Source: Lagopus muta
Lineage: Eukaryota > Chordata > Aves > Galliformes > Phasianidae
DNA length: 64,000 bases
Assembly: GCF_023343835.1 (NCBI RefSeq)
Contig: NC_064437.1
Coordinates: 51,472,972 to 51,536,971, forward strand
Direction: 5' to 3'
Of the stretch, positions 8,839 to 51,960 are shown piece by piece. How positions within the stretch are numbered: the stretch's first letter is position 1; every line of letters begins with the position of its first letter. Position numbers and translations under genes: made by a program. Under the pieces are notes generated by a model. That model did not search any database, had not been told where the DNA came from, and saw only the letters and a list, made by a program, of their open reading frames with translations.

Positions 8839-9151
8839 TCAGTTCCAGCTGTAATAGTCTCTTGGAGGTACATCATAAGGTGTTCTCTCCTCCTCTTCAG
8901 GTCCATAATCTAATGGCAGACCATAATTGTAATCAACTGTTACAACTGGTAATCTTTTGCCTTGTTCCATTTCTCTAGTAGTTTCAGCTTCAAAAGTTTT
9001 TATTTCACAGTCTAATGAACTATCTTCCTGGTGTACGGATGAGGATGGATGCATTGTGCATGAAGAATATGGTGCAAATCTGCTTTTTCCTCTGCTAAAT
9101 TCATCTGAAGGATGCACTCTCCTATTGTCTTCAGGACAGCTTGCTCGATTA
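8839..9151 (-). CDS. DUSP11: DUSP11-like last coding exon (residues 559-662, stop)
   Basis: The acceptor is CCTACAG followed by TAATCGAGC, and it enters at phase 2 (AG+T gives Ser559). The exon reads to a TGA at 8839-8841. The peptide is acidic and Ser-rich, with a conserved-looking end rich in Tyr, Pro and Asp ([17 protein letters not shown], then YYSWN). A frame extending upstream to 9315 is read-through into the intron, not coding. Confidence 0.85.
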
Positions 9152-12100
9152 CTGTAGGAAGAATAAACATGAACAGTGAAGTCATTGAAATTAAAACTGC
9201 CTAGCCCTAAAAGAGCAAGAATCAGATTTCTACTTTTGTTTTTATCCTCTCTAATTAAAATTTCTCTACTAGATGTTAGAAATATTTTTTTTAAGTTTAG
9301 TAGGTAAATGAACAAGAAAATGCTTTGTGTTTCAGCTGCTGTTTCTAATTAAAATTGCCTATTTACTGAAGGTTTCTTAGGGTCCATTTTTGTTCCTGAA
9401 CACATTTTCATTGTGTGAAAAATACTTAACAGCAGCTGTCTGTTACACAGTCTCAAGCAACATTACACTGTGTATTTATCTTGCAAAATATTTTTGCATT
9501 CTTCTGCAACAGAAGAATCTACAAAATATCATATTTAATTTTTGTTATGGATTCTCTTTGGTACAGTACTTTGTAAAATAAATGGTGTATAAAGCTGATT
9601 GAGAACAATCTTTGTAATTTTTAATCTTTGCCTTCACTAAACCATAGATGAATATTATTGGAAGGGATGTCTAGTAATGTCTAGCTCAGTCCCCTGCTCA
9701 AACTCTTTCTTGCCATATGAGGTTGCACAGAGGTCCAGCTGAGCTCAAGGTATTTCAAAGGATGGCAATTCCACAGCTGCTCTAGGCAATGCATTTCTGT
9801 ATCCTCAAAGAAACAGCCTTTTTCCATATAGGCTACAGAATTTTTGATGGTCTAATAAGAGTCTGTTGCCCCTTATCCTATCACTGCACACCATGAAAAA
9901 GAGTCTGCCTCACTCTTCTTTGTACTTTCTCATCAGCTCGTTGTTAGACATCACTAAGAGTTAAACATACTATCAGCAGTTCCTTTTTTTGCTTACTGAA
10001 CACGTTTTTTTTTGTATTTTGAACACAGGTTTTTTTTTGCATTTTATAATAAGTGAGCTTGAACTCTCCTTGTTATTCTGATGACTTAAGTGAGGAACTC
10101 TCAGTTTCATAACTATTATAATCTATATGAAGCCTGATATAGATGGACTACAATTTAGTCACATTACTTGCTTAATGTTCAGATTCAATGGTTTAAGCAA
10201 AAAGAAATTAACAAATTTTTACACAACAGGTAATTTGTATTTTTTTAGTTGGATACTGAAAGAGTAACAGTATAAATCAGAAAACAACATAAAACCTGGT
10301 ATTTACCTATAGCTTCTGTTGAAGTCATCCTTATCAGATCCATAATCTCTGTGAAGCGAAGGAGATGAGGAGAACTGAGGTTCTGATACATTTTCATGGG
10401 AAGAGAAAGGTTGATTTCTGAAGATAATCAAAATAATCATGTCAAGAGGAGTACAAACTACTGTAGGCTTTTGAAAAACATCAGTTAAAATTACTTCAAA
10501 TAATTTAATAGCTATTAACATTTCTTCAAATTAAGTTTTATTAGAAATATCTTAATCCTATTAGTTTAACACGTCAAAATAGTACCCTCATGGTGCTGAT
10601 ACACTGCCTGGTTTCACCTGTACAATGAAAAAGATTAAATCAAGTTTTACTAGCCCAGCAATTATCTGAACTATGTTCTGAAAGATCAAATAAATATTTT
10701 GAAATATATTTGCAAGAAACTTAACTACTAAATCCATTTTACTAAGTGATATATGCTTTTGGAAGAATACAACGCAAAAGGAGCAACACAATGCAGTCAG
10801 AAGCAAAAGGATTTCTACAAATGATTAATTCATGAAATAAGGGAATGTCAAACTTCCTTTAACATTACTGTTATCTCAGTTCAGATGAGAATATAAATAA
10901 AAATTTATATCTTTTGTCTTGAGGAGTGCTGTTTAAATTTGACAAAGTTTCGTTTCAAGCTGAATCCAGAAAAGGTGAAACATGAGCTTTAAGGAAGCAC
11001 AATCTTGTAGTTTAGGTAAGGTGCCTTCAAATTTACAGCACTGAAACTTAAGTCAAATACATCCAGACTTCAAAATAAAAAGTTGATTGTTAACTAACTG
11101 ATCATTCGTGTGTGATTTCAGCAAGACCTGGATAGGCTGGAGAGCTGGGCAGAAAAAAACCGGATGAGGTTTAACAAAAGCAAGTGTAGAGTCTTGCATC
11201 TGGGGAGGAATAATTCCATGCACCAGTACAGGTTGGGGGATGACCTGCTGGAGGGGAGCTCTGCAGAGAGGGACCTGGGTGTCCTGGTGGATGACAGGTT
11301 GGCCATGAGCCAGCAGTGTGCCCTTGTGGCAAAAAAGGCCAATGGCATCCTGGGGTGCATTAAAAAGAGCGTGGCCAGCAGGTCAAAGGAGGTGATCCTC
11401 CCCCTCTACTCTGCCCTGGTAAGACCTCATCTGGAGTACTGCGTGCAGTTCTGGGCTCCCCAGTACAAAGAAGACAGGGATCTCTTGGAAAGAGTCCAGC
11501 GGAGGGCCACGAAGATGGTGAAGGGCCTGGAGCATCTCCCCTATGAGGAAAGGCTGAGTGAACTGGGTCTGTTCAGCCTTGAGAAAAGGAGACTGAGAGG
11601 GGACCTGATCCAGGTCTATAAATATCTAAGGTGTGGGGGGCAGAATGGCGAGGCCGGACTGTTTTCATTGGTGAGTGGAGACAGGACAAGGGGAAACAGC
11701 TGGAAACTGCAGCATAGGAAGTTCCACACAAACATGCGCAAGAACTTCTTTACAGTGAGGTGACGGAGCACTGGAACAGGCTGCCCAGGGAGGTGGTGGA
11801 GTCTCCTTCTCTGGAGATGTTCAAGACCTGCCTGGATGCCTACCTGTGCTACCTACTGTAGGGAACCTGCTTTGGCAGGGGGGTTGGACTCGATGATCTC
11901 TGGAGGTCCCTTCCAACCCCTACAATTCTGTGATTCTGTGATTTTAAACAGATGACTGTTTCAAATAAATGTATTTAAAAGAGTTTAAAATTTAATTTAG
12001 AAGTGCTGCTAGTTCTGGTCTTACTGTTAAAGGATAATCAAAATAATCGTATATGAAGAGTAATACAAATTACTGTAGGCTTTTGAAAAGTATCAACTAA

Positions 12101-15100
12101 GACTATTTCAAACTGCAGTGCTTTCAATTGTACCTGTCTGAACACCATTCATGTGGCAGGTCATCTTGAACAGGATGATCACGGAGGGGTCTTGACCTTT
12201 TTTGTCCTTGCCCTCTATTAACATAATCCAAGTCTTTTAACTGAGGCTGCTCCTGTAAGTCATCATAAGGCTGATGGTCGTGAAAAGGTCTGCGCCTTTG
12301 CCCAGGACCTTTATTATCATAATCTTTGAGCTGCACCTCTGTTTGTAAGTCATTGTGAGCATTGTGAGGATGGTGATCATGGAAAGGTCTCGATCTCTGC
12401 CCACGGCCCCTGTTAACAAATTCAAACTCTTCCAGTTGCATCTGGGGCTGTGACTGATAGTCATGGAATGGTCTCAGTCTTTGGCCAGGACCTTTTTTGA
12501 CACGATCTGACTCTTCTGACTGCACTGGAGTCTGAAATTGATCACGAGATGGATGATTGTGGAATAGCCTTTGCCTCTGGCCACGGCCCCTGCTACCAAA
12601 ATCAAAATCCTTTGACTTCATATCTTCCTGTGAATCACTGTGGGATGGACAGTCAGGAAAAGATCTCTGCCTCTGCCCATGGCCTTTGTTAAATTCAAAG
12701 TTCCTTGATAGTCTCTCTGTCTGTAAATCACCACGAAACTGGCATCCATAAAAAGGTCTCAGCTGTTGTCCAGGTCCCTTGTTACTGAAGTCTTTCAGCT
12801 GTGTGTCTTCTTGGCAATCATCATAAAACTGGTGATCAGGAAATGGTCTTTTCCTCTGCCCTGGTCCCTTATTGTAGTCCCAATTTCTCATCTGCATTGG
12901 TGCTCGCAAGTTATCCTGAGTCTGATGGTCATTAAATGGTCTTCGTCTTCGTCCAGGTCCCTTATTAATGAAATCAAAATCTCTCAGTTGTGTTTGTCCT
13001 TGCAAATTATTATGAGAGTTGTCATCATAAACTCTTAATCTTTTCCCAGACCTGTAAAGAATTTTTTTCTTAAATAGAACATCTGTACTTATAAGTACAA
13101 GTTATTAATGAAAGTAAGCTTTTTTTAATCCAAGAATTGATATGAAACACATTGCAAGTAAAACATGTATGTATCAAAGTTACTAAGAATCTAAACTCTA
13201 AGCAAAATTATAAAACTTTCAGACAATGTCAAATTAGAAGATATGACAAACATTCAACTATAATTCCATAGGGCAAAACCAGAGATATGAAATTAATTAA
13301 AAATAAAACTCAGACTGCTGTAGAATAACAAAGACCAGCAGGCATAGTAAAACTCTAACATTTACCCAAAAGAGCTGCTCACCAATTCCTAATAGCACAT
13401 ATTCCCTATCTTCCCTTTATCTTCTCATTACTTTTTCTAATTCTGTAAATATACTTTGCATGAGTAAGCTACATGAAAACAAAATCTCTTCTAACTTAGA
13501 ATATTTCAGTGCTTTCAGTGTTTCAAAACACCACATCTCTAATTGTTAAAATCAGCTGATCCTCTTGTAACATTGTAGTGGATTGCCACTATAGAAACAG
13601 CTCACACACACTAAGGAAAATCCATCTTTTGCACTATGGGGTTTTTGGCTTTTCATTCCAGGTTTCAACTTATTACCCCTGAAAATCTTCATTAGGGAAT
13701 TGTTCCGCAGGTCCTTCTGCTGCATTTGGTGGGGGAACAATATCTTCATCTGAATCCCATACATCCATTCCAAGGTTACTGTAAAGAATAAAAACATCTC
13801 TCATAAGCTTCCTTTTCTCCCAAACATACTGAGAGAGGAAAAAAGAATCACAAAGATTCTTCAGTTGAGAATTACTGATTTTCTTAAAAATATTAAGTTA
13901 ATCTTACAGACATTCAAGATTTTCATAGCAAATTTCAATCTTGTGAATCTAGTTGAGGAAGGGCTGTAGAGAAAGCCTAAACTTCATATATTTACAACAA
14001 TATCAAAAATGTGAGACAAGTACCATACTTCAAAAAATTCAGCACAGAACTTTCTTAATCACACTCAGTCACACCAGCAATTAACACAGTAAAACAAGAA
14101 CAAAGGGCACTAAACTAAAAGGAGCAAAGTCTGTCAGATATTATTTTAAAATCAATGCGATGCTACAAGTTGTAGTTGTACAAATAATGTACTGAGATGT
14201 AAATGTTAATTATTCTTAGGTGCTCCGGGGTGTACCGGATAAAGTGTACCGGTAATATGATAAAGACAAGAGATTCCATATGCGTCAGGAATATAAATAC
14301 TAAAAGCAGGAGCTTTGGGAACAATCTTCCACCTTACTTTCTCCACTACAACTGGTTTTTGGTTTTTTTTTTCTTTTAGTTTGTTTGTTTTTAAATAATC
14401 TAGTTCCACCACACCATCAACAGCAGGCAGAGCACAGAGCTTATAATGAAATCTTAGCAGTAGCTCTTCTCAATTTATAAGAGAGCACAGACTCAATATA
14501 GTTGGGATAGTATGATACAAGTGCACCAGTGCCCAGTCGTATTCATCAAAGCCATATAAATTCAAAATATAAACAAAGGTACTTTATGTTATTCACATCA
14601 GAAGTCTTGCAGAATTTATGAAGCTGTTTACAAAGTGTTTAAGAGGGACAATTTTGGCTTACAAATGTAACTAAACTTTTAAAAATACATCCTGGAAAAA
14701 TCTTAAGTGCGCAACTAAAAGCTTTTGCTTACCTTCTCATTGGTTGTGTTCTGAGATCTGTGAGGTATACAAGACCATCCATGCAATGACCCCTAGCATC
14801 ACCAAAAGCTAAAGAAAAAGAAGAACATGTCCAATGACATGTGCATAAACTGGGTCACAAGAAGATGAAATAGCAGCTTTCTATTCACCACGAAATACTA
14901 AAAAAAAATCGCATTAATACAAATGCCACAGCAAGCTGTAATTGTTGAAGCAATTTTATTCTTTTAAAACTGAAACTAGTAGTGGTAGCAACCTATCACT
15001 GAAAAATTCTTCAAAGCAAAAGCCAAAGAAAAAAGAATTAAAGAGCTGAAACTTCCTGTCACTCAGTTTGCTAACGCTCAAACCTCATTTGAAAGAAAAT

Positions 15101-17111
15101 CAGCAGAAAATCTTCTCTGGAGACTACCACAGGAGGTAACAACACGCAACAGCAGAACAGCACACTGCAGCACAACTGTAGCATTTGTGAATACAATTAT
15201 AGTTAAATGTGAATTACAACCCAACATTTGTCTGAGTTCAAAGCTTGTAACATACCTTGGATTGCTGCCTCTGGATCCCAGCCTTCAACGTCTATAAGAT
15301 ATCTAAAGAAAAACTTGATTACTCTGCTGTCCCAAAGGGATTATAGACTAATATAAAGTCACTATATCTTTTGTAAATACTGATATTTTTTTTTCAACCC
15401 TTACCTACATATAAGGTAGCCAGTTCTATTAATTCCATTAGTACAGTGGACACCAATGAGTTTTTCTATCAAAAAAGATAAACACAGGCTTTAGTAGTTC
15501 AGAAAATGAAATTACTTGAAATTAGCTTAAGACAAAAAAAAAGTGCTGAACATTTTATTAAGTCGTTGTTGTTTACAGAATGATACTGTCATGCTTGTAA
15601 AATAACATATCATCCAGACTTTGTCTTCTTCATGCCAGATCTCTAGCAGCAGTTAACTCATTATTTCCAGACCTGTGAAGACTGCAATTAACTCTAAAGA
15701 ACATATGAAAAAGGAATGATATCAGAGAAAGCTGCCAGCCTCCAGTCAGAACTGCAGTAATAGGAAAGAGTAAAATACGGTTTTGAAAGCAACCTTGGCC
15801 AACTAGCAAATGTAACACTAAATAAGTTAATGTTCAAATTCTTTTAAAACTTACAAAAAGAAGAAAAAAATGCATAATATCCTTAGTATCTAGGAGTATG
15901 AAATGCATTACAAGAAGAATTAATTTAACTGGATTGAAAATTCAGGTGATTACTGGGACAAATCATAGAGATAAAGTATTCAGGTTCACAGACACAGACA
16001 AGCACTCTGATGGGAATCAGTTATGTCAAAAGAAAACATATTTTCTGAAAAGATTATACTAATCAGCTGTAGGCTAAAAGAATGAGTTACTACTATTAGG
16101 CTGTTTCAACTGAGGTATTTCCAATAAGGGAAACAGCAATGTGGTCATGCAAGGCACTGATAAAAACCTCATCCAGACTATTTCACACACCAATACACAA
16201 CAGAAAAAAACCCAACAAATTAAAATACATATTTAAAGGTCCACTGTGCTCGTCACAAAAAAGGGCCTATTTAGTGAGAATAAATAATATGTAAGAGCAA
16301 AATTTGGTATAAGAATATTAACTGGTTAAGAGTTTAAATCTAGATTTAGAAGACAAACTTCAAACGTCAGAAGCACAAAGTTCAGGCAGGGACAAAGTAC
16401 TGACAGAAGGTCTCTAAAACGGACTTTGATAAATTTTTTAATGAGATCCACTATCACTGTTTGCCATAGAACAGGACAGTCATGCTATCGTGTAAGTTTA
16501 TTCTAGGTTGGTGTCCCAAACAGTAAAAGAACAAACTTTAGAAGTTATTTGTAAGTAGAATCATGATTAGTTACCATGGAAATCTGAAACTGAGGGCATG
16601 TTACAATGCATAAGTTAACATAAAAACTGAAAGCTCACACACCACTGAATTTACATAATTACATAATTTTGCTAGTGCAAAAACACAAAAACCAGCAGCA
16701 GATCCACACTGTGGAAATACTGACACCGCATCTGCAAAATGATTTTTAAAAACTGCTAGGACACGATGGCAACAATTCAGAAAATTGCTGCGTGTGACTA
16801 AATGGGCTTCGTTAGATTGCATATCAGTGCCCAGTGCCATCAGAGAAACCCTGTACTATTTTCAACATCCACAGAGAAGCAGCAGCTGTGACACTGAGTT
16901 TATGGGGAAAAATCTGAGCCAGATTCTATTGAGTATTCTCTTTGTCAGCTAGATGGAGGTAACCCATCTAAACCTTGTGAAAAAGGTGGAGTTCAGATGG
17001 GGGCATTCAACATGCACTGGATAGAGACTTCCCCAGCACAATTAGAGAAGTATAATATAGAAGCCTAACTACACTGGGATCAAGGAGTACAAAAATATTT
17101 GCAATTATAGT

Positions 17112-17142
<31 letters not shown>

Positions 17143-20100
17143 ATTGCTCAGCAGTGGTCTGTAAATTACCAGAAATTCATAAGCAAGTTTTTCTCACTTG
17201 GAGTTGCTTTGCCACATGACAGATACAGGTATAATACTATTAAGAAATGAATTGTTACTTTTGAGAAAGGTGTGTTACAAATACAAGACAGAAGGTATAT
17301 TACGTTTACTACCACATAATAGTAAATTGGAAAATGCTGTGGAGTGCTTTCAGACATCTGGAGTTCCAGATGCCATAAGGCATCTATTGTAATTAATAAA
17401 TGATGCAGCTAGCACCAAAGTATTATTATTTTTTAGTCTTTTACAGCATAAGATGCTGATATTTACCATTTCTTGCATTTTCCCATAGGAATTTTCGGAC
17501 CCATTTCTTGAATTGTAGAATAGTAGCATTATCAGGAACTTCGAGTCCAACAGTATAAAGTTTCTTATACTGCACACTTCTAGGTAAATCCTAGAAACAT
17601 GAAGAAAAACATGGTAAAAATTACTGAAATCTTGCATTAATGAAAACCCTAAGCTGTATCTAAAATATCAGCAATGCAAAACAGTAGTTTCAATGCTGCA
17701 TAGAAACTGAAAACAATCATGACATGACTTCACAAAGAGCCATTCTCAGAAACCAATATTTACATTTCTGTTGTACAGAAACTCTTCTATCAGATAAGGT
17801 CTTTACATCTACCTACCCCTAAAAATAAGATGGCACATGAATTAATTAAAAAGAGCAGATTATTTTAATTCCATTCCAACACATTTAACAATTATTAGGA
17901 ATGTCTACCCTGCTGAATCTACCTGCAGTCATATTCACACATCTTTCCCCTTAGTGTACCAAGCCAATGCACATTTGAAGATCAACATTCAGTTATAACA
18001 TGGCTACTTATTCTCCATTTCAATAGAAGGCAATTAAAATTCTACGAGCTGGTCAACTAGTAACAAATCTATGATGAAGGAAGCAATTTCAAGATGTATC
18101 CTTTTTTCAGTGGATTCCACTGGAGATGCCTCCAATCTCTTTTCTACAGTGCCTAACACTGAAGTCTTCATCCATTACTCTGAGCTGCCATAGCACAAAT
18201 GAGTCACCGATGTAACTAGCAGGTAGGAGGAGCTTCTTCCTGTCACAAAGCATTCTGTTTCTATTAGAGACACGAAGTCTAGATGGCTCAACTCATCTAT
18301 TCCAATTCAAGGCGAGTAAATGCAAAAATACTTTAAAACAACGATGGCAGTAACTATTACAAGATTTGCTATGACTCTTACAAGTACCTTAACTTCATAG
18401 TATCGTGTGGTGTATGTTAAATCGATAATTAATCCGAGCTCCACATTTAGGGCTTTCATTGCAGCAATTAAGTCTTTTGGTGTAAATTTCTGGGTTGGGG
18501 TAAGCCTCTGGTTAATTGCCTACAACAACAATGGAAAAGGATCATTTGCTTTTTGAGTTCTAATAAGACATTTGCTATATTCAGTTTATTTAAATAGGAA
18601 AAGGGCAGTTTTCAAAATGGAATGTTTGCAGTATCAAGAGCACATCTACGTTTTATACAGATAAAAAAAAACAAAATAAAAATTTGTTTCTGTTCCAATG
18701 AATAGGCAAGAAAACATGAAGGAATTTACACTTAAACAACATTAACAAAAAACCACTAATTTAATGGACAAAAACCTTGCAAAATGCAGCATATAATAAT
18801 TTTATATACATACTGATTAAGTAACTAACTAAACAAGGAAGCTCAAAACACTGCAATCCCTCCCCCAGAACTTCTTTTGTCCTGCACAATAGCACAACAT
18901 TAACAGCATATTTCACATAAAACATCAGAAGTTGTGATGCCAGAGTTCACTTACTCTCAAGGCTTTAACCCTCTCCCCACAAATGTTACGCAGGCATTTT
19001 TATCCCTGGTTCAACTCTTGTCAGAAAGTACTTGTGTGTCATCTAGCACTGGGAAATGTTAAATAAGTCTATAATACAGTGGCATGTTGGTGGATAATGA
19101 TAATCATTAATTAATTAATTGTATTAATTAATTTCATTTGACAGACACAGCGTGAAAATTGTTTACTCACCCTATTGTAGCCTGTGGTTTCTGACATGTG
19201 TTCTCCGCTCTAGGTATGAAAATGCCTCGTGCACAAATCTGGATTTTCTCTGAATAGGGAGCTGTCCATTGTGAGAGCCTTTTGGCTCTGTCACCACCAA
19301 TAAAGAGTGGCAGAACAGATGCAGCAGCCTCAACCACCTCTCAGTTCCTTTGTTAATAAGAAATTCAAGTAGACTGGACTCAGAACTAATGGAAAGGAAG
19401 GCAGCCACAGACCACACACCTCTCAGAACCACAGATGCTATAGGGTAACTATTCTATCTTTTGACTGTACGGATTCTTATCTAAGATGCTAGCACTTTGA
19501 GTTGAGTCTGGAAACAGAGAGAGGAATTCTAATTTAAGAATGAACAGCAGAAAACTCCTATCTATCAAAGCTGGTATATGATTAGAAAGCTTGCACTGAA
19601 ACAGTAGGGCTGAAAGTGCATAGAAGTATTCATTCCTGAGTATTTCAAATGTTGGTGTACTGCTGAAAAACTGTGGAGGTTGTCTAAGTGCAAACCTAAC
19701 AAAGACTAGTCACAATCATCTCTCAACTACTCAGAACTATTTTCTAATAAAATCTGAAACTGAATTCACGAACTTTGAGGTGAAAACTACTAACCTGCAG
19801 AAGTCTGTGGCAGAACTTGTAAAAAGTTTTGGTTTTTTTTTTGCTGTGTGAACTTGCACTTAAAATCAAGTGAAAATACACCCTAAAAAGTAAGACATCT
19901 ATAAACATTTTGCTTCATCATGTTAACTGTGTTATGGAAAGCTATTTGAGATGCTATTTGAGATGCTATTTGAGATTTTCTGAAGTACTCGACAAATCCT
20001 GCTGAGTTTACCTGCCCTTTTTATGATCTCTGGTGGAGCTCCTTCCAGGCTATCAGAGAACTACAGGGGAAAGGTAAACTAACAACCAAGTATCTTCCTT

Positions 20101-23100
20101 TGAAATCTGGAGTGACAGTGTAATGCTACAATGGGACGATAACGGCAGGGTGGCAGAGTCTTGGGCTACAGCAACTGGGAACAAGCTCAAATGCAGCAGA
20201 CTCAGATGCAGAAATGTAGGAAAAAGGCTATTTACCTTTGGAAGGCCTCAAGCAGGCAGGGATCTCTGGCAAGAGATGCCTTCATCTCCACTGCCAACCC
20301 TTAAGTGAGGTCTGGCAAGGGGTGGATCTTGGCTCCACCCCTTCCAGTCACTTAGGTACACTGCAAGCACCTGAGCTCCTCTGGGCTGGCCCTGCCTTCC
20401 CACCAGGTGCTCAATCACTGCTTCAGGCTGTGACTCTGCATTTCCACTACAGATGGGAAACTAGAAATACATGGAGTGCAAAAATCCTGTCCAGAGAAGT
20501 GTGTTTGTAAAAAAAATGGTGCTGGATCAAGTGGAATTACAGGAGCTGATAATGCAAAAAAGTCTCTCTCCCACCCCAACAGTAGAGAAGCTAATTACAG
20601 ATCTACTGAACCTGACTTCTACTGATAAGTAGATCTACCCTCTGGCAGTCTTGGTAGAAAGGCACATGGCTACTGCATCGTTCTTTACAATTATGCAGAG
20701 CAAGTATGACCAACTAAGACCTTTGGTGTCAAACCAACCAAAGCATCATACTGAAGCTGGGAAAGCAGCTAAGGAAGTAAATCCTGCAAGCACTCCACTT
20801 CAGTCTAACAGAAGTGAAGTGAATGGTGACTGAAAATGTAATGGGCTCTAATATGCCAGAAGAAAAAAAAAAAATTAACTACATGAATACTAGAGTGCAA
20901 TCAGTAGACAACAGTTAAGACTTCCTTACTTTTAACTGCTATGGTTATGTCTAGCCATTGAATATTAAAAGAGCTTAGAAACTTTTTTTTCCTGTGTATC
21001 TGAAGTAAGAACTTGTATGAATTAATTTATACAGCATTTGTGTTGATTTATACAGAAAGGCAAATTTGCAACCATGTACCTCAACCCATCAAAGAACTGA
21101 AGTCTCCACATTTTGTTCTGTCACAAAAAAATTTAGAGATCTAGCTTAGTGTATTTAATGGATTAAGGCTCTATTCCATGTTATTAAGTATCTAATGGAG
21201 TTACTAACACAGAAATAGAATAAATCTATGAATACCGTGTTTCTCCATATCATTGAAGCTTACCAGTAATCTAAATCTCTAATTTTAAAAGTACTGCAGT
21301 GTAAGTGTATTTTAATAAGTGCTTCATCTTTGAAAAATGGTATTTTGGTTTATACTGCCTAGACTGTTATTCATATCACAAACCCCTTCCATGGCAATAA
21401 TCAGACTTTTCTTCTAACAGTCATGAAAGGATGTTAAATAAGATGTTGAGTTTAGGCCACTAAATTAGTGATTAAATGACTTTACTGACTGGTTAGAGAT
21501 TGTCTTATTTACAGAAAATAAAAAGACTAACACTAAATACACCAGAAGAGTGAAAAAAAAAATAGATAATTGTGTAAATAAAGCCACTGGTAGATGACTG
21601 GATTTATTATTTAAACAAAATATTTGCCCATAAATCTTTTTTGAAGTTTTTGTGAGTATTAATGCTATTTTTCATTATTTTTGTACTGTATTTAGTAAAG
21701 ACAATGTGTAGTTACTGTTTATACATACCCCTTTTAAAGGTACTTTGAACGCAATAAATCTAGTTCCTGGTATAGGCTGCCCAACCGGTGTCAAACTCCT
21801 CCATCTGTAATGAAATAAATATTTATTTTAAAATATTTTTAAATAACAGATGTCAACAAAAGACACAAATAGCTCTAAGTAAAACTTCTAAAATAACGTA
21901 TGTCCTCTTTGGATTAAAACTTCTGTAAAGCAAAGCACATAAAAAACCCTTTTCTTTAAAACTGTAATAGCAGTTACTTCAAACCATATGAAATATCTTA
22001 CAAATATCAAGCAACTCTGCTGTCACATTTAGCAGTAGATTTAATGTAGTAGTTATTTAAAACTTCAAGCATAAAGACACAATAGTTACCTTTTCCTGCC
22101 TACAGTGGGCACCTACTAGCATAAAGCTTTAAGATTTCCAAAAAGCACAATCAATAGTTCCTAAATTTCTTGGTCACATAAGCAAGCAGTTGCAATAGAT
22201 ACGCACAAAAGTTTGAAAAAGATGTCCAATTAGATCCTTGTATGTATGTAAAATCAGCTTTCTAAAAAATTATCTTCCATTAGTATCCTGTTTCACCAAC
22301 ACTAACATTATTTTAAAAGTCATAAAAATTCATTTTGTTATGATACTACATATTTGAACACAATTAATAGCTTAGCATTCTTCTGGGATAAATGAAACAG
22401 GGAGCTGCCTAAAAGATGCTAGGAGAACATGAACAGTGTTACCACAGGACTGATGGAGAAGGAAGCTTATTTAGCACATTACACAACTTACATAAACACA
22501 CTCCTATTGTTTGCAAGCCTAAAATCAGGAGTCATAATAAAATGAATATTTATTCTCCATAAAGCACTATGATAAAATATTTTTTACAGATCATGTGCAT
22601 GACATACATTAGAATTATGCCCCCAAATCTGCAGCTGTTACAAAGTCGTTTCGCCGTATTGACAGCATGTTCCAAAACAGTCTTTCTCCTTCCTTTCTGT
22701 TTCAGCTTCCAGAAAACTCTGTTCCCTCAGAACGTTAGGGAACTTACAGACAAGGAGCACCAACATAGAGTAAAGTAGAAGAACAAAGTACAACAGGTAA
22801 AAAAAGCCCACTTCTTACTTTATGGTCACCAGAAAGTCTTCAATGGCTGAATCAATTTTTAACTTGGCTGAATCAAACATTCTTAGATACAGTGTTACAG
22901 CCTCACTTAAATCATTTAGATGACAACGAAATGCTAAGTTTACTTTCATTTAAAAGTATAAAACTTTTAGATTTTGCAAATACATTCACTTTGTAGTATT
23001 CTTCTTTTTCAGGGCAATATTTTTCACTGCTCTTTCTCTTGGTACTCTCAAAACCAAAGAATATTTGATAGTAGAAAAATTAAGCAAAAATCACTTTAGT

Positions 23101-26100: not shown

Positions 26101-27715
26101 TTAATTGGCAGAAAGGAAAGTGGATTAAAACTGTTAAGAATTGCATAAAAAATGGAGGCAGTAACAAAGACAAGCTAAAAAATGCTGGCTGTCAACTTAT
26201 CTACTACCAGGCTTCTCCTGCACTATCGTTACCAAACAAAATAATTTAGTGTTATGTTCACAGTGATACAATAGAGATTTTATTTCCATAGTTAAATACT
26301 GTCTTCATGTTGCAGTGTACCTCAATCTTACTTCTTCCAAAAGCTGGGAACACTTTGGTATCATGAGCTTTGTCACATGATAACACTATCTTTAAAAGCA
26401 ATTACTCTACAGCAGATGTTCTCCTCTCTGTGAAAGATACACAGGTGTTAGTTTCTAATCAGAGGCCAGAAGCACAGGCCACTGTTTCTTCCATGTTTAC
26501 AGAAGAAACGCACATAACCTAAAAGCACCTCAAGCTCAAATGCCATGGGAAAAGAAGGGAAAAATGAGTAACTGACACATTCACAACATTTTAGTAATAA
26601 TTTTTAAGTATGAAAAAAACAAGCAGGAGTTATTCTTACAGGCTCCCTTTATTATTGCTTGCAAGCCTAACCCACTTTCAGGATAACTTTTTGTGTTAAA
26701 GTTCTAACTGAATTTTAACAGAAACTTTCAAACAAATGAATGCATGCATAGAATTTTCTAAAATTTTATTCTATTTTTAATCTCCGAGTATGTCTGCTAT
26801 TGAAATAATCAGTTTCTAGAAGCTAATTCTAAAAGTTTGCTTATTGTTTGTTTCTATTCACTGCTTTAGACCAGCACGTTTTGCAAGAAAACACTTTTTG
26901 TATGTCATTGTTCCTCCTAAGAATGTTCTCAATAAGGTTCCTCTAGATAATGTCCACCTTTCCCAAAATATCATATTAATTCCAAGTTACTGTCCTGTTA
27001 CAATATGCTCGTATGTCTCACCACACCCTCCTATCACAGAATTTGTTCAAACATCAGCAGTAAAACATAGCTTAAGTTTTAAAGTTGGACTTCCTTCAAT
27101 TTTCTTTTTTTTTTTTAAGAGCTCAATAGTGGGACCACATTTGTTTTAAATGAGAATATTCAGTGGTGCCTATATGCACTCCCACTAAAGCCATCAGAAA
27201 GCAAGTAGAATAATACATTATTTTGTGTGTTTTTTGTTTTGTTTTTTTTTTTTTTTTTCCACTGATAGAACATTTTTTGTCATCCTATTGTGAAAACAAA
27301 AAACAAGAGACAGAGGATAACGTGTTTCTGGACCTGTGTGTTCTTTGATCATGTGCACGCAACCAGCTGCTCTCATCTTATCTACTCTTCCCTTACTCTG
27401 AGCAGTCAGGATGGGCTACTCTCCCATTTACCCAGGTAAGTATGCATCTGGGGGTGAGTAAGTTAGGAAGAAGGGACTGCATTTGTCTGATGAAGGAGAA
27501 CGTTCAGATGGGCTGGAGCATCATACTCACCTGGGGGATGACAAGCTGTGTTGTTCCTGTCTTGGAAAAGATACCTAGCTTACCTGGCAGTACATGGCAA
27601 AGAAGCACCTGGGGCAGTGAATGCCCCTTCTCTATGGGCAGGGCTGTACCCGCTCCTGCCTCTCGCTTAGTGTGAGGGATACTTACCCCTCGGGGATAGT
27701 GTTCTTCTTTACCAT
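8839..27715 (-). CDS. DUSP11: DUSP11-like RNA/RNP phosphatase with repeat-expanded tail (whole gene, spliced)
   Basis: The joined minus-strand exons are 27687-27715, 21729-21804, 18388-18519, 17467-17590, 15405-15465, 15256-15302, 14733-14808, 13677-13778, 12134-13051, 10307-10417 and 8839-9151. They give 1989 nt (662 codons plus stop), and every junction keeps phase. Residues 9-182 match the DUSP11 (PIR1) cysteine-phosphatase domain. Seen are [12 protein letters not shown] near the start, [14 protein letters not shown] (about 65-78), and the active-site loop [10 protein letters not shown] at 127-136, with catalytic Cys128 and phosphate-binding Arg134. By family knowledge the enzyme removes gamma and beta phosphates from 5'-triphosphorylated RNAs, mainly in the nucleus. 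Mammalian DUSP11 is about 330 residues as I remember it, so this protein is about twice as long. The excess is residues 183-662, a polar tail with about ten ~30-residue repeats. It ends in YSWN, a word I also recall near the human C terminus. The catalytic identity is firm; strict orthology rather than paralogy is inferred. Confidence 0.88.
9638..9930 (-). mobile_element. Old CR1 LINE fragment, minus orientation, in last DUSP11 intron
   Basis: The plus strand carries weakened reverse-complement CR1 words ('ttggaagggatgtctagtaa' at the tail side, then 'ccccttatcctatcactgca' and 'gaaaaagagtctgcctcac'). This matches the 3' end of a much diverged CR1 lying in the same direction as the host gene. 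The edges are approximate. Confidence 0.6.
10307..10417 (-). CDS. DUSP11: DUSP11-like tail exon (residues 522-558)
   Basis: The acceptor is TTATCTTCAG and the donor is ATAG followed by GTAAAT. The exon is 111 nt, begins and ends in phase 2 (a symmetric exon), and encodes a Ser/Asp-rich linker (for example [19 protein letters not shown]). No known domain is seen. The intron just upstream of it (10423-10500) has a near copy at 12033-12112. Confidence 0.8.
10423..10500. repeat. Paralogous intron segment, copy A
   Basis: About 78 bp abutting the acceptor of the 10307-10417 exon. It shares GATAATCAAAATAATC and ACTGTAGGCTTTTGAAAA, in the same order and spacing, with 12033-12112 in the same intron. 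Seen directly; the origin as a local duplication is inferred. Confidence 0.8.
11112..11945 (+). mobile_element. CR1 LINE, 5'-truncated, plus orientation (antisense to host gene)
   Basis: This is a relatively young CR1 copy holding the C-terminal end of ORF2 (the reverse transcriptase polyprotein) and the full 3' end. A frame from 11164 to 11763 encodes about 199 residues of the family's conserved tail ([16 protein letters not shown], then [19 protein letters not shown], then [19 protein letters not shown]). It closes at a TGA near 11761 where the usual GTGAGGGTGACG reads GTGAGGTGACG. That one-base loss breaks the frame shortly before the normal end. The 3' end shows the diagnostic short direct repeats ('attctgtgattctgtgatt'). 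The element lacks its 5' half and cannot move by itself. It sits in the intron between the 12134-13051 and 10307-10417 exons. Confidence 0.95.
12033..12112. repeat. Paralogous intron segment, copy B
   Basis: Second copy of the segment at 10423-10500, just downstream (in gene direction) of the repeat exon's donor. On the minus strand it also ends in an acceptor-like CTTTAACAG near 12024-12032. No clear exon follows, only a short frame ending in TAA, so this may be a decayed duplicate exon flank. Confidence 0.75.
12134..13051 (-). CDS. DUSP11: DUSP11-like giant repeat exon (residues 216-521)
   Basis: A single open exon of 918 nt, entering and leaving in phase 2. The acceptor is TTTACAG followed by GTCTGGG. 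The donor is ACAG followed by GTACAA. It encodes one leading degenerate unit (216-244) and nine tandem units: 245-275, 276-305, 306-336, 337-368, 369-400, 401-428, 429-461, 462-493 and 494-521. The core consensus is NKGPGQRxRPFxDHQ, followed by a variable acidic/Gln linker ending in LKDFDF-like words. The units are rich in Gly, Arg, Gln, Asp, His and Phe and look disordered. RG/GQR-type repeats suggest RNA or RNP contact, but that is inference. Mammalian DUSP11 tails, as I remember them, lack this array. Confidence 0.88.
12134..13051 (-). repeat. In-frame tandem repeat, ~90 bp period, ~10 copies
   Basis: The DNA of the giant tail exon is an array with a period of 84-99 bp. The clearest words on the plus strand are variants of 'ggtctgcgcctttgcccagg' (encoding the PGQRRRP core), recurring near 12287, 12389, 12474, 12568, 12669, 12760, 12849 and 12939. 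Copies differ at many positions, so the array is not a fresh expansion. Their spacing changes only in multiples of three. Confidence 0.88.
13677..13778 (-). CDS. DUSP11: DUSP11-like exon (residues 182-215)
   Basis: The acceptor is CTTTACAG followed by TAACC and the donor is CAGGG followed by GTAATA. The exon is 102 nt and symmetric in phase 2. It follows the catalytic domain and encodes an acidic linker ([18 protein letters not shown]). This is where the repeat-bearing tail begins. Confidence 0.85.
14733..14808 (-). CDS. DUSP11: DUSP11-like exon (residues 157-181)
   Basis: The exon encodes [19 protein letters not shown] and a few more residues. This is the last helix block of the phosphatase domain and matches the family's RGHC...YIEDL block. 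The acceptor is TCTTTAG; the donor is GAAG followed by GTAAGC. Confidence 0.9.
15256..15302 (-). CDS. DUSP11: DUSP11-like exon (residues 141-156)
   Basis: A 47-nt exon encoding [15 protein letters not shown], the helix just after the active-site loop (family form RYLIDVEG). The acceptor is TTCTTTAG; the donor is CAAG followed by GTATGT. Its phases (2 in, 1 out) fit both neighbours. Confidence 0.9.
15405..15465 (-). CDS. DUSP11: DUSP11-like active-site exon (residues 121-140)
   Basis: A 61-nt exon encoding [19 protein letters not shown]. It holds the cysteine-phosphatase signature HCxxGxxRTG with Cys128 and Arg134, so the catalytic loop is intact. The acceptor is TTGATAG; the donor is TGTAG followed by GTAAGG. 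Confidence 0.94.
17112..17138 (+). repeat. Poly(A) tract, 27 bases
   Basis: Uninterrupted A run in a DUSP11 intron. There is no recognisable retroposed sequence on its 5' side. It is likely a length-variable mononucleotide repeat. Confidence 0.95.
17467..17590 (-). CDS. DUSP11: DUSP11-like exon (residues 80-120)
   Basis: Encodes [19 protein letters not shown] and the following helix [14 protein letters not shown]. The family form is DLPETVPYLKIFTVGHQVP. The acceptor is GTTTCTAG; the donor is AATG followed by GTAAAT. It leaves in phase 1. Confidence 0.93.
18388..18519 (-). CDS. DUSP11: DUSP11-like exon (residues 36-79)
   Basis: A 132-nt in-phase exon encoding [18 protein letters not shown] and then [18 protein letters not shown]. 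The second block is shared by DUSP11 and the RNA triphosphatase domain of capping enzymes. The acceptor is TTGTTGTAG; the donor is TTAAG followed by GTACTT. Confidence 0.93.
19941..19975. repeat. 12-bp tandem repeat, ~3 copies
   Basis: The unit 'gctatttgagat' is repeated about three times in a DUSP11 intron. It is a small minisatellite with no seen function. Confidence 0.8.
21729..21804 (-). CDS. DUSP11: DUSP11-like exon (residues 10-35)
   Basis: Encodes [19 protein letters not shown] and then KVPLKG. The human form from memory is [20 protein letters not shown], so identity is clear. The acceptor is TCATTACAG; the donor is AAAGGG followed by GTATGT. The first base completes codon 10 (GG+A, Gly). 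Confidence 0.93.
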
Positions 27716-27966: not shown

Positions 27967-28100
27967 CTCTCCTCTCCAGGAGACCAAAAGAACCAGAGAG
28001 GAGAGGCGGCGGGTTTCTAACTCTCGCAGCAGCGCTGCAAAGGTGAAGATGTTCCAGGCAGACCCAGAGCAGTCCGCTCAGCCCTCGCGCTCCCACAGCC
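27967..28100 (-). other. DUSP11: Predicted noncoding first exon of the DUSP11-like gene (5' edge unknown)
   Basis: The minus strand shows the donor AGAGGAGAG followed by GTGAGT, with GT at 27965-27966. It is the best donor between the CpG island and the start-codon exon. Sequence upstream of it has a stop (TAG at 28017-28019) in the frame that would join the ATG exon, so the exon reads as 5' UTR. The 28100 edge given here is arbitrary because the transcription start is not visible. Confidence 0.5.
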
Positions 28101-28606
28101 AGAACTCGTCTCGACTGGAAGCTCCGAGCATCTGCAAGAGGCGAGGCCGGCCCTCAGCGAGCTGGACGACCACCTGCCCCACGCGAACCTCGGCGGGGCC
28201 GACCCCGCGGCGGCCCGAGCACCAGCAGCGGCCGCCGAGCCCAGCGGGGCGCAGAGCTCCCCCTGCGGCACAGGGCCCATGGTCGCCGCTCCACAGAGGA
28301 CGCCTGAGGCTGGGCCGGCTCGGGGCGCTCGGCGGGAAGCCGCCAAGCCGAGAGGAGGGATTAAAAAAAGACACGGGGGCAAAGGGGAGGTCGCGGCCCG
28401 ACGGCTGGGGGCCGGGCTGTCGGCGAGGGGCCGGGCCGTGAGAAGCAGGGCGAGGGCTGCAGCAGGATGCGGTAACGAGGGAAGGCCCGGGCGCCGGGGC
28501 GGGGAGGAGCGGGGCTGCGGGCGGCCCGTACCCTGACAGGATTTCCCTTGCAGAGGAAGGCTGGAGCGAGACGGGCGGCACAGAACGTTCCCGAAACGGT
28601 CTCGAC

Positions 28607-28617
28607 TGCGCATGCGC
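28607..28617. promoter_or_regulatory. NRF1-type palindromic site 1
   Basis: TGCGCATGCGC, matching the well-known NRF1 consensus, inside the DUSP11 CpG island. Confidence 0.65.
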
Positions 28618-28777
28618 GGCGGCTGGCCAGCTTGCCGGGAGGGGGCATTGCGCCTGCTCCTCGCGGTCGGGCCGGCGGGTGCCGAGCGCGCGTGCGCGGC
28701 GGCCGCGACCCCTAGGCTCGAGCGAGCACCCGCTCAGTGCGCGTGACCGGCCGGCCAATGGGACGCGGCCGTGCGTC

Positions 28778-28788
28778 TGCGCATGCGC
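28778..28788. promoter_or_regulatory. NRF1-type palindromic site 2
   Basis: TGCGCATGCGC again, 171 bp from the first copy and about 20 bp from a CCAAT box. Confidence 0.65.
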
Positions 28789-29100
28789 CGGGAGCCCGTG
28801 GGCGCAGGAGAGAGGCTGGGAGGCGTGTGTGGTGTGGAAATGGCAGGGATAGGGGTTGCGTTTACTGCTGAGCGGGCGGAATGAGACGGGTGTGCTTCCC
28901 GTAGCGAAACGTTTTGTGGTCGTGGGGAGCGGAGCTCGAAGGGAGCCCTGAGGGAGAGCCGGGTCTGGGGGGCGTCCTCGCCCGCCCCCTTCCTCAAGTG
29001 CGCCTGCGCTGCTGCTGTGGAGCTGCGGTATTGCGTCTGCACCGCCAGGAAGGAAGGAAGTGTGCGGAGGAGGCTGTGTCTGCTGGCAGCGAGGTGGTGT

Positions 29101-44535: not shown

Positions 44536-44947
44536 TCACCTCTCAAAGCAGGGAGTAACACAGGAATATCGTCCATTCACTTGGTAACTCCGGTTGTAGG
44601 AGACACTTATACATGGCTTCACTTCTAGAGGAACAGCTAGTGACATGGCAGCACCAGTCTGTACATGGGATCGAGCCTGGACACTAGACTGTAAGGCAGC
44701 AGGGCAAGTCTGAAGTGGATAAGATGCTGTGTGATTAGCTGATACTATCTGTTGACAGTTTTGCTGTTGTGATGTCTGATGATGATACTGTAATGAAGAC
44801 TGATGAGCTTGGAGATACTGTGGTATGTGTGGTTGAACATTAGCCTGATGAGCAGTTGGACCTGGGGTCTGAAATACAGTATGTTGAGCAGACTGAGAGT
44901 GTTGTCCTTTTTGCTTATTTGCTTCCTTCACATCATTATCATGTGCA
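44536..44947 (-). CDS. CCNJ: CCNJ exon 5 (residues 247-383, stop)
   Basis: The acceptor is TTTGTTTTAG followed by TGCACATG, entering in phase 2 (AT+T, Ile). It reads [15 protein letters not shown], then a Gln/His-rich low-complexity tail, to a TGA at 44536-44538. Confidence 0.93.
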
Positions 44948-47900
44948 CTAAAACAAATGGAGAAGACAGAATACATTAAAATAGATATAAAAGTCATTTG
45001 AACTCTTGGATTAACTGAAGAGCAGTAACAAATGCTGTGGTTACCAGAAAGGATCCAAAGCTTAAGAAAAATTATTTTTTTTTTTTAGTCTGCCCTTTAA
45101 AGTTTGTTTCTTTTCAGGATTTCACTTATTTTCCTAGCAATTCTAAACCAAATTTTAGTGCAATACAAGCAATACAGCAGTATCTAAAATAGTCTCAGTG
45201 CAAGAAAGTCTGCTAGTATACTGCAGTTGAGTGCCAGATCATTGAAAGTATACTTACTTCTTGTCTCTGTCTTATTTAAATGCGGTAACAGAGTAGAAGT
45301 TTTTCTTTAAAAAACATGATATTCTGTCCTGCTCTGTACTTAAACAGTTTAGTTCACCTGATTTTCTTTTGATTTATACCTTCCTTAAACGTATTTAGAC
45401 TTTTTCTTTCACATGCTCTTGTGCTGAGGTGAAGCAAGCAGGTGCCAGCTGCACACTTCTATTGGACCTTAAGTCAGATAAGGTTTTGGTTCTGTATGTA
45501 CAGGGCTGATCTCTCGAGCTTAGTATGGTTCAGCCCATCAACAGTCTTAAGAGACTGCAAGCTTTTTATGGTGCACTGCAAAAAAGACTGTAAGCTTCCC
45601 CTGTCCTCCCATATCAAAGCATTCCAAAGTGATACTGAAAATGCAACACATTTGCGTGCTCTAGGTACCATTCACTTCATTACATTTGTTGCTGAAGAAA
45701 ACAGAGGTCAAAGGTGATAATGTCAACCTTATTTACAGTTTTGATTCTTCCAGATTCAGAATTTTCTGTACTTTAACAGTGCATAATTGTACTTATATAA
45801 GGGCAAGAGCAAACCTCTATAGGAGGATAGCAATTACTGTGGGCACAGGTTTAGATCTTGAGCTTTGGAATATAAGAACTGATTTGATACCCTTTCCCAG
45901 CAAGTTTCAAGTTGGCATTTGCTGGTGTTTTGTGTGATGTCATTTGCATTGCTACATGGTAACACAAAACTAGATGCAACCACCCAGCTGATTTTTCTCT
46001 CAGTAAGTTGGCTTTTCAAACAATTCCACGTTTGATCCAAAATCTGCCTGGAGCCTCTTTTTAACTTCCAAGGCACAGTCTTAAGAGCAAGCATGAGATC
46101 CTGAGCCTCCCATACTCTTTTTTGCCTGTTAATGGACTACAGAGATTGGGAACAAGCTATTTAACAGATTCTCTGAGCATGTTATACCTAAAAATATTAC
46201 TTAATACATAAGTATATGTAAGTATAAACAGATATTTAAAAAAATCAACACAATGTTAGAAGCAATTAGGCATACCAACAGTTTGGTACACCGGCCAGAA
46301 AAAAGCAGCTATTAACTTACATTAAAAGGCGTTCAATACATGGCACTAGAAAATCCCAGGAATATGCAGTAAGATGATGCAGTCGAGTAGGCCATGTTGG
46401 TGAGAGGCGTAAGATAATCCTTGAAGAAGCTACACATGCAGTGGCAACTAAAGAAGGGGCATAATTTAAGAATGCATGATCTAGAATGAAGAAAGCATAA
46501 AAAAAGATTCATTTAAGTTGGACATAATCTGCCAAGACAACAAAGAAGTAATTACCTGAAATACATAACTCACCTTGCAGCGATACTTCAAGAAAGTAAT
46601 CAGCATATTTTGCCATATATAACTTAGTCTTCTCCAAGCAAACCATCGGCCAGCCATCATGAAGATCAGTTTCATGGACAGCAATAGAAAGATAATAGTC
46701 GATGAAATGAGCAGCAGTTGGGAGGCACAAATTCCACTGAAATGTTTCTAGCAACAGTAACTCCATATGAAGCAAATTCTGTTTTGTTAGTACCAAATTC
46801 ATATTAGTCATACATCCCAAGCTGTTCAGTTGTTCAAGTTTGGGAACACTGTCTTCCTTTTCTTCAAATTTACCTTCAGATGAACAGAAAGAGGGGGAGA
46901 AAGGGTTCAGCATGCGTGAACTACAAAACACATTGCATCTACTCACTGTTGTTGGTCATATTTCAATTCTAGTACATCAAATAAGCTTTAGACTTTTCCA
47001 CAAATGCAAAGCTCAAATGGAAGACTTACTTGGAGACATAAAGTAGCATGTACTATAAAGGACTGAATTTCAGCAGATAATGTCATCGTGCTGGATATCA
47101 TACAGTGCCATATTTCCTGTTGATCCATCTGCCCATGAACCAGTTACTGTTTGCCAAGTGCAGAAGTAAGCTATGTTATGACATCCGTGGCACTACTTAT
47201 ATTAAGTTTTTGTCACCAAACTACTGTATTATGAAGTGATATAGTGAAATACCACTGCCATGGGACCTAATCACTCTCTCTCTTCCCCACAAACCCTGTT
47301 TGGTTTTAGAAATCATTAGAGTACAGCTACCTCTCTAGTCAATTTATCTGCTCTGTTATTACCTGTTATGCTAGGTGCATTTTTAGATTTGATAGCAGAT
47401 ATGCTGCTCCAGCATTTCAAAGAAGTGGATTTCAGCAATGTACATCTGAAAAACCACATTGCCATATAAACTTAACACTGCTGGTAGCTTCAACCTTCCC
47501 TGGACTTTAACTTGTCAGGCCTGTATGCTTTTAGCCTGAAGCAGAATTGTATATGTAGAAAATCCATTAATAAGGGAAACAAGTGTCACATTTCCATACA
47601 GTTTGCCATATGGTTGTGCTATTTAAATTTCATTGCAAATTCTTTCCATCTTACACCCACTATTCAGTACTACAGATATGTTGTAAAAGCACATTTTTAG
47701 AGACTTCTGCAGGACTGAACATACCAATCGTTTGCTTTCACCCCACTAACAGTGAGAGGTATTTACACAGGAGTTAAGGCCATGCCAGCCCCAGCCTGTT
47801 CGTTTTTGTTTTCCACACTTAACTAATTACAGAAATGGAAGCTTTTCAGGACTCACATATTCATTTCTCTTATTACTTCTACAACTTTATCAGGCATAGT

Positions 47901-50900: not shown

Positions 50901-51101
50901 ACCGCGTGTCCCGCTCTAGAGACGCGGCCCAAAGGTCTCAGCCAACGCCAACGCCGGCACCGACACCGCTCGCCCCGCTCCACCCCGGCCCCGCGCTGCC
51001 CGCTCCCGCCGCCCCCCCCCCGGCGGCCCCACCTTGTAGCGCAGCGCCTGGTGGATGTCCGCCGCCAGCTGTCCGGTCCACCACTGCGCCTCCAGCTCCA
51101 T
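44536..51101 (-). CDS. CCNJ: Cyclin J (whole gene, spliced)
   Basis: Exons 51033-51101, 49251-49461, 46574-46873, 46321-46480 and 44536-44947 join in phase to 1152 nt, 383 codons plus stop, the length I recall for human CCNJ. It starts [20 protein letters not shown]. The N-terminal cyclin box spans about residues 20-145 ([19 protein letters not shown], then [20 protein letters not shown]), and the C-terminal cyclin fold about 146-246. The tail is Gln/His/Ser-rich and ends [20 protein letters not shown] plus Arg. Identity to the vertebrate family is near-complete over the cyclin boxes. Cyclin J is a poorly understood cyclin-family protein; the Drosophila form binds Cdk2 and acts in early embryos and germ line. 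Strong match to CCNJ rather than CCNJL rests on memory of the human sequence. Confidence 0.95.
46321..46480 (-). CDS. CCNJ: CCNJ exon 4 (residues 194-246)
   Basis: A 160-nt exon. The acceptor is TTCATTCTAG and the donor is TTTTAAT followed by GTAAGT. It encodes [19 protein letters not shown], then [20 protein letters not shown], part of the second cyclin fold. Confidence 0.93.
46574..46873 (-). CDS. CCNJ: CCNJ exon 3 (residues 94-193)
   Basis: A 300-nt exon beginning [19 protein letters not shown] and ending [13 protein letters not shown]. It spans the end of the first cyclin box and the start of the second fold. The acceptor is CATCTGAAG; the donor is TGCAAG followed by GTGAGT. It enters and leaves in phase 1. 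Confidence 0.95.
49251..49461 (-). CDS. CCNJ: CCNJ exon 2 (residues 24-93)
   Basis: A 211-nt exon. The acceptor is CATCTAG followed by GAGCTG and the donor is AGCAA followed by GTAAGT. It encodes [20 protein letters not shown] and on to [14 protein letters not shown], the core of the first cyclin box. Confidence 0.95.
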
Positions 51102-51960
51102 GGGGGGCGGCGCGGCGCGGCCGGGGCCTGGGCGGAGGGGAGGAAGCGGCGCCGGCTGAGCGCGGGCGGGCGGGCGGGACGGGGCGGCAGCGCCACGCTC
51201 GCCCCTTCCCCGCTCGCCCACAGTTAAGCGCGATCAGCTGCCGCTCTCGCCGCGGGGCCCCGCGGCCCCCCGGCCCAGCTGGCCGTCATGCGAGCCGGCG
51301 GCACAACTGAGGCTCGTTAAGCCCCGCCGCCGGGCGAGGAGCCCGATCGCGCCCCAACAAAGGGCCGGCGGCGCTCCCCCTCCCCCACTCACCCTACGCA
51401 ACGGCCGCGGCAGGGCCTGGCGCGGGGCACCTGAGCGCGGCGCGGCGTGCCAAGGGCTCCCCTGCCATCACGCGGCGCCGCCCGCCTCACCCATTGTTAA
51501 AGGGCCGAGCGGGGCGGCGTGTGTACAAAGCCGGGCAGCGGCCGCCCCGCCGCCAATCGCTAGCTGCCTTACAGCGCGGCCCGCCCGCCGGCCGCCAATG
51601 GGAGCGCGGCGCTCACAGGGGCGCGGCGAGCCCCGCTGTCCGCGGCCACGCGCGGGAAGCCTTTGGGCCCGCGGAGCTGCCGTAGCCACCTCTCGGTAAG
51701 GAGCCGGGGGAGGGGCGGAGCCGTTACGCGGGCCCGCCTTGGGGCGGCCTCACTGGGAACGGGTCCCGGCGGCGGGGCGATCCGGGCGCTGAAGTGGGCG
51801 GTGTGCGCCTTTCCTGTGGGCCTGCCCACTGAGCGAACGCTCTGAGGGCGGTTTGGGCGTTTCGATTCCGCAGCTGTGGGGTTCTTCGTCTTGTGACGTT
51901 GGGACGGCTGTATGAAGGAGCTCGGGGCAGCGCGGGGCTCTGCTGAGCCTCGAGCGTGAG
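50860..51960. promoter_or_regulatory. CpG-island promoter of CCNJ, probably bidirectional
   Basis: Very GC-rich and CpG-dense, covering CCNJ exon 1 and about 850 bp upstream. Two CCAAT boxes lie at 51553-51557 and 51595-51599, about 450-500 bp upstream of the CCNJ ATG; no TATA box is clear. Many overlapping open frames here are GC artefacts. On the plus strand a good donor (CTCTCG followed by GTAAGG, GT at 51696-51697) could end the first exon of a divergent RNA. Confidence 0.8.
51033..51101 (-). CDS. CCNJ: CCNJ exon 1 coding part (residues 1-23)
   Basis: The start ATG is at 51099-51101, with a C-rich leader (CGCCCCCC before ATGG). The donor is TACAAG followed by GTGGGG at 51031-51032. It encodes [20 protein letters not shown], then RYK, nearly identical to the human N terminus. 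The 5' UTR extends into the CpG island to an unknown start. Confidence 0.93.

Follow-up and report, generated by a model that had tools for sequence, protein, structure and literature searches.

A gene on the minus strand of the 64,000-nucleotide stretch of DNA analysed here (the window), which we term DUSP11L, is, from sequence comparison, probably not the ortholog of DUSP11 but a faster-changing paralog that would have arisen by duplication at the DNA level. Its product carries a tail of nine full repeat units (u1–u9, 28–33 aa each) preceded by a degenerate unit (u0), all within one exon, and the codon comparisons presented below indicate that, over the time since these units came into being, purifying selection has acted on their amino-acid sequence. 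Our tentative reading, in which we place a little less than even confidence, is that the tail would serve this divergent paralog as a multivalent, disordered tether to RNA or RNP.

The gene model (Table 1) comprises eleven coding exons, all of which are open and bounded by GT-AG splice sites, and yields a product of 662 aa. Exon 1 is located near CpG-rich windows (28001–29000), while the boundaries of the repeat-bearing exon 9 conform to consensus (acceptor ttctttacag/GTCTGGG, donor GACAG/gtacaa) and are joined in phase 2 on both sides. Exons 8, 9 and 10 (window 8839–13778) are all of phase 2-2, so that any of them could be skipped without a frameshift and tail-less isoforms are possible.

Table 1. 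Location of the features discussed in the text (window positions unless a contig is given).
Feature	Position	Strand	Remarks
Coding exon 1	27687..27715	-	MVKKNTIPE plus 2 nt; phase 2 out; donor GG/gtaagt; read by eye; human chain aligns from NxIPExW
Coding exon 2	21729..21804	-	76 nt; length and phase as exon 2 of C30 DUSP11
Coding exon 3	18388..18519	-	132 nt, as C30 gene
Coding exon 4	17467..17590	-	124 nt, as C30 gene
Coding exon 5	15405..15465	-	61 nt, as C30 gene; carries catalytic P-loop
Coding exon 6	15256..15302	-	47 nt, as C30 gene
Coding exon 7	14733..14808	-	76 nt, against 73 nt in C30 gene; family motif ERxNY altered
Codon GGT (Gly) at position of human DUSP11 Arg192	14774..14776	-	Numbering verified on H151, C152 and R158
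Coding exon 8	13677..13778	-	Phase 2-2; acidic/proline linker; final codons run into unit 0
Coding exon 9 (repeat array)	12134..13051	-	918 nt; phase 2-2; residues 216–521
Unit 0 (degenerate leading unit)	12967..13050	-	Leave-one-out score 26.3 bits, best shuffle 9.4
Units 1–9	12136..12966	-	NKGPGQRxRPFxDHQ core plus acidic/aromatic spacer; leave-one-out HMMs
Coding exon 10	10307..10417	-	Phase 2-2; Ser-rich
Coding exon 11 (last)	8839..9151	-	Open reading frame to stop TGA at 8839
Retroelement fragment	11111-11950	+	Inside intron 9; 3' end ATTCTGTG repeats; no Pfam match
Cyclin-like exons	44536-46955	-	Upstream of the DUSP11 paralog, same strand; CpG-rich windows 50501-52000
Canonical DUSP11	C30:1833147-1837438	-	8 coding exons; 296 aa; no array

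When the genome was searched with the catalytic domain of the window protein at E ≤ 10, twelve matches were obtained, namely six window exons, four exons on contig C30 (43–54% identical), one on C2 and a further, weak one on C8 (E 5.6). The four C30 matches belong to a canonical DUSP11, the coding exons 2–6 of which (76, 132, 124, 61 and 47 nt) are identical in length and phase to those of the window gene, exon 7 differing by 3 nt; introns conserved to this degree point to duplication at the DNA level rather than retroposition. The two genes differ in their tails, which are encoded by a single exon in the C30 gene and by four in the window gene, in product length (296 against 662 aa) and in neighbourhood. 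Approximately 1.6 kb past the C30 stop, on the same strand, there is an exon whose translation is similar to 2xze, human STAM-binding protein (E 1e-30); as human DUSP11 and STAMBP are, we assume, neighbours, it is the C30 copy that occupies the STAMBP-adjacent position and not the window copy. The initial annotation had equated the window gene with mammalian DUSP11, a view that is not supported given the presence on C30 of a canonical gene which adjoins STAMBP, keeps R192 and carries no array. The single exon on C2 (C2:35045669–35045749) presumably resembles the mRNA capping enzyme and would not be a third DUSP11.

Catalytic-domain identities amount to 121/177 between the C30 and human proteins, 101/178 between the window and human proteins and 99/180 between the window and C30 proteins, and the score to human DUSP11 (4mbb) in the PDB search is 287 bits for the C30 protein as compared with 222 bits for the window protein. 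Over 177 sites, the human and C30 residues agree against the window protein at 35, the human and window residues against C30 at 14, and the C30 and window residues against human at 12; the near-equality of the latter two counts would be compatible with duplication either before or after the bird-mammal split. The reverse arrangement, in which the window gene is the true bird DUSP11 ortholog and the C30 gene a derived copy, is in our judgement very unlikely: the end of the window protein, DYYSWN, may resemble the human tail, but the C30 protein is the closer of the two to human, retains the ERxNY motif and is encoded beside STAMBP. At one position of the C30 protein, following the Pro of human VPDDETI, Asn replaces Asp (C30 IPNNQTI).

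The window gene is flanked by a cyclin gene and BTAF1. The former, which we take to be cyclin J, gave a Pfam Cyclin_N score of 18.2 bits, under the curated cut-off of 23, while the latter is represented by five DUF3535 matches (a domain that we take to mark BTAF1) at C8:51441471–51447929, beyond the 3' end of the window gene and in the same orientation. Two N-terminal-looking peptides of this putative BTAF1 neighbour had no match in the PDB.

With respect to the catalytic domain, the window protein is clearly of the DUSP11 type, matching 4mbb with an E value of 5e-65, and its P-loop is intact, HCTNGINR being aligned with H151–R158 (HCxxxxxR). The domain had been described as ordinary, and this proved wrong since, though the P-loop is intact, the motif ERQNY has become DGLVY and R192 is replaced by Gly. 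Residues 191–195 of the human protein read ERQNY, as they do in the polynucleotide 5'-phosphatase 1yn9, presumably a baculoviral enzyme, and the C30 protein has ERMNY at this location. In the accessible sections of PMC12058148, R192 is mentioned as having a suggested part in beta-phosphatase activity, capping enzymes are described as being without it and viral DUSP11s as retaining it. The loss of Arg192 thus suggests, at the level of sequence, that the paralog may no longer perform the full triphosphate-to-monophosphate reaction and may have acquired a specialised role.

Alternatively, the repeat-bearing exon 9 and the altered motif of exon 7 might be regarded as signs of relaxed constraint in a gene decaying towards a pseudogene, and both its faster change (35 sites, as compared with 14 for the C30 copy) and the loss of a motif that human DUSP11, the C30 protein and 1yn9 all retain are in line with this. 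We nevertheless consider decay highly improbable, because none of the eleven coding exons of the model is interrupted and all have GT-AG splice sites, the P-loop is intact, the catalytic domains of the window and C30 genes differ with a pN/pS of 0.35, and two Dusp11 unigenes are listed for chicken spleen in the accessible part of PMC3409229 (Table 4 therein). One of these two unigenes bears the label 'BTAF1; Dusp11', which is what read-through or a merged assembly would yield, since the BTAF1 neighbour follows the window gene in the same orientation. By analogy this hints that the chicken counterpart of the window gene is expressed, although both unigenes might be pieces of a single gene.

Turning to the tail, the exon at 12134..13051, encoding residues 216–521 as nine full units plus a degenerate lead, was reproduced as initially annotated, in coordinates as well as in unit count, and is likewise in frame and free of stops. 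The array also lengthens the protein about twofold, as had been claimed relative to the mammalian enzyme (662 aa against 330 aa for human DUSP11 in the accessible text of PMC12058148). G3, G5 and R9 are invariant in all nine full units, and further conserved core columns include Pro11 (7/10), Phe12 (8/10, with Tyr in one other unit), Asp14 (8/10) and His15 (6/10). In leave-one-out HMM analysis, where the start of unit 0 was placed in the final codons of exon 8, all ten units scored between 20.6 and 59.3 bits as compared with best shuffle scores of 7.8–12.3 (500 shuffles each), and the self-similarity of the array at lags of 61, 93, 63, 32, 30 and 31 exceeded the maximum of 500 shuffles. The unit HMM gave −1.3 on exon 8 and −13.9 on the C30 tail against a best shuffle of 4.5, and no scored match on exons 10–11. 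At DNA level, a repeat search recovered 8 copies (the reference plus seven at 62–76% identity) at a spacing of 84–99 nt, whereas Tandem Repeats Finder reported only short local repeats, the DNA being too diverged. The sense reading frame of exon 9 contains 0 stops; the other five frames contain 38, 8, 24, 9 and 15, the first two of these being the other sense frames, and the chance of a stop-free exon at this base composition is approximately 7e-9. Repeats are located inside a single long internal exon (918 nt, ten units), their disorder being a prediction.

Selection on the array was assessed by comparing its units. Pooling of the 45 unit pairs, which are non-independent, gave pN = 0.329 and pS = 0.807, i.e. 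a ratio of 0.41 (jackknife 0.39–0.43), as compared with 0.90 in the codon-shuffle control (SD 0.03, 200 shuffles). The ratio is 0.33 in core columns and 0.50 in spacer columns, and unit identity at the three codon positions is 0.67, 0.63 and 0.43, respectively. Substitution at synonymous sites has reached saturation between units, with dS not computable for 29 of the 45 pairs, and for this reason the ratios are rough, average over the long history of the array and are no proof of selection at the present day. Adjacent units are 0.46 identical as compared with 0.42 for other unit pairs, and recent duplication or homogenisation of units is ruled out by this similarity in conjunction with the synonymous saturation. 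The unit scores, the ratio of 0.41 with saturated synonymous sites and the symmetric exon together substantiate the initial proposal that the array is old and has been selected to stay open.

These data also bear on the notion that the tail is an entropic spacer or a tolerated expansion, for which disorder and openness would suffice and the number of units would have no functional meaning, as may be the case for many long internal exons with repeats. Longer internal exons tend to be richer in tandem repeats and their indels mostly encode structure-less regions (PMC12457776, accessible sections), and the spacer columns of the array do have a pN/pS as high as 0.50; it is the sequence itself that is conserved, however, with three residues invariant in 9/9 full units despite saturated synonymous sites, and the values of 0.46 and 0.42 indicate that the likeness between units is not derived from recent duplication. 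A mere spacer role is accordingly rather improbable in our view.

In the genome of 1,026,658,476 bases, the array was matched once, both by DNA and by protein (E ≤ 1), such match counts being lower bounds, and no paralog or donor of the array was found elsewhere in this genome at E ≤ 1 besides the window copy. Searches of Pfam and the PDB with the array returned no family and no solved structure. No match to the array was obtained in phages, while in viral_contigs the array, the catalytic domain and the two-gene alignment gave 1, 3 and 588 pattern-matching stretches, respectively, none of which was confirmed. Two matches of the array in PHROG (E 0.032 and 0.084) were taken as chance.

The hydropathy and charge of the array place it on the disordered side, and an AlphaFold2 model from a single sequence, which is weak evidence when taken alone, gave a pLDDT of 45.5 and a pTM of 0.12; the array is thus predicted to be, and probably is, intrinsically disordered. 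The RGG/RG class of RNA-binding regions is defined by tri-RGG, di-RGG or tri-RG clusters. The array contains 0 RGG, 6 RG, 2 di-RG and 0 tri-RG motifs and one FG, and so falls outside this class, its two di-RG motifs counting only under the loosest class; a classical RGG box was rejected given the 0 RGG. Net charge is +5 over 306 aa, which is nearly neutral, as compared with +19 over 114 aa in the far more basic tail encoded by the last exon of C30 DUSP11. Two strongly basic clusters, KKKKKRHH and RKRRRRRHKKR, are present in the C30 tail. Within the array, the basic Gly/Arg core of each unit alternates with an acidic/aromatic spacer, and charge segregation is modest, with z values of 2.4–2.8, exceeding 294–299 of 300 shuffles depending on window size. 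Condensation of the tail would be compatible with this modest segregation. Ddx4 is an RNA-granule protein with a disordered tail of alternating charge, and in tails of this type basic Arg/Gly/aromatic blocks alternate with acidic blocks, as in the array; the latter differs in its regular unit of 28–33 aa, its lack of RGG, its one FG and its modest charge segregation.

If the tail is indeed a tether, each unit would offer the Arg/Gly-rich sequence NKGPGQRxRPFxDHQ as its core and an acidic/aromatic spacer behind it, and the multivalent tail would keep the enzyme bound to RNA or RNP assemblies, thereby concentrating substrate around it or directing it to a granule. Catalysis would remain in the N-terminal domain, and the paralog, without Arg192, would have taken a specialised role. 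According to the accessible sections of PMC12058148, the catalytic core of one viral DUSP11 (residues 1–197) is sufficient for activity in vitro, which implies that this viral tail at least is dispensable for the chemistry, and human DUSP11 is mostly nuclear whereas the two viral DUSP11s tested are pan-cellular. By analogy with a core that is active alone and with such differing localisation, a DUSP11-family tail may more plausibly set location or substrate access than chemistry.

The near-neutral charge and the lack of RGG motifs, both unlike strong RNA-binding tails, count against a tether to RNA, and the conserved Asp and His following RPF, which argue against a purely electrostatic RNA binder, would be explained at least equally well by a specific motif for docking to a protein. 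The main rival reading, serious though in our view less likely than not, is that GQRxRPFxDHQ is a linear motif for one protein partner, e.g. an RNP or decay factor, which the array would bind through avidity and in the absence of direct RNA contact. Conserved Pro, Phe, Asp and His columns would be unusual for purely electrostatic RNA binding and the core is more constrained than the spacer (0.33 against 0.50), both of which speak for docking; on the other hand, the array has no counterpart in Pfam or among solved structures, no domain is known to serve as its partner, and the cores are Arg/Gly-rich, as is often the case in RNA-contacting tails.

Among known systems, the window protein is closest to DUSP11/PIR1 (RNA/RNP complex-1-interacting phosphatase; human 4jmj/4mbb), with which it shares the P-loop HCxxGxxRTG and 101/178 identical residues and from which it differs by the absence of the ERxNY motif with its Arg192 and by the ten-unit array. 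The triphosphatase domain of mRNA capping enzymes is related (PDB 2c46 and others) but scores 96 bits as opposed to 222 for DUSP11. These enzymes are, like the window protein, without the R192 residue (PMC12058148, accessible sections), while no guanylyltransferase domain was seen in the window protein. The avipoxvirus vDUSP11s belong to the same phosphatase family and are traced by the authors of that paper to an avian host; in the sections accessible, proteins of 303 and 403 aa are named, and unlike the window protein they retain R192.

A full-text search for DUSP11, evaluated by title and the start of the abstract and covering few subscription journals, revealed neither the tail nor a second avian DUSP11 gene among the matches listed, and neither is described in the accessible parts of PMC12058148, PMC6600418, PMC3409229 and PMC12457776. 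Divergent paralogs are known already, as are long internal exons with tandem repeats; what is new is their combination here. As DUSP11 trims the 5'-triphosphates of host and viral RNAs, thereby tuning RIG-I sensing (PMC12058148, accessible sections), a second avian copy with an altered active-site motif and a large, conserved repeat tail would mean that two enzymes may share RNA 5'-end processing in birds, and that studies in which 'avian DUSP11' counts as a single gene may mix paralogs, including in the search for the avipoxvirus donor. A bolder and, in our opinion, unlikely extension is that birds possess a second, neofunctionalised DUSP11 which, having lost from its active site the arginine for the second dephosphorylation step, would be tethered to RNA by its disordered ten-unit tail and, beside the canonical DUSP11, would stop at the 5'-diphosphate or read 5' ends without turnover; if true, such a paralog would change which RNAs are marked as self.

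Intron 9 of the window gene displays some features of its own. A direct repeat of 80 bp, the copies of which (window 10423–10500 and 12033–12112) are 82.5% identical, is present at the ends of this intron, one copy approximately 20 nt from the donor and the other 5 nt from the acceptor, around an insert of approximately 1.5 kb. The pair is a local duplication, and no copies besides these two turned up in a search of the genome, the count of which is a lower bound. A candidate exon 10-like remnant beside the repeat was discarded, since its score of 14 was attained by 137 of 200 shuffles. The retroelement fragment within the intron, which we take to be CR1-like, has a 64% identical copy at 1350–1828 in the opposite orientation.
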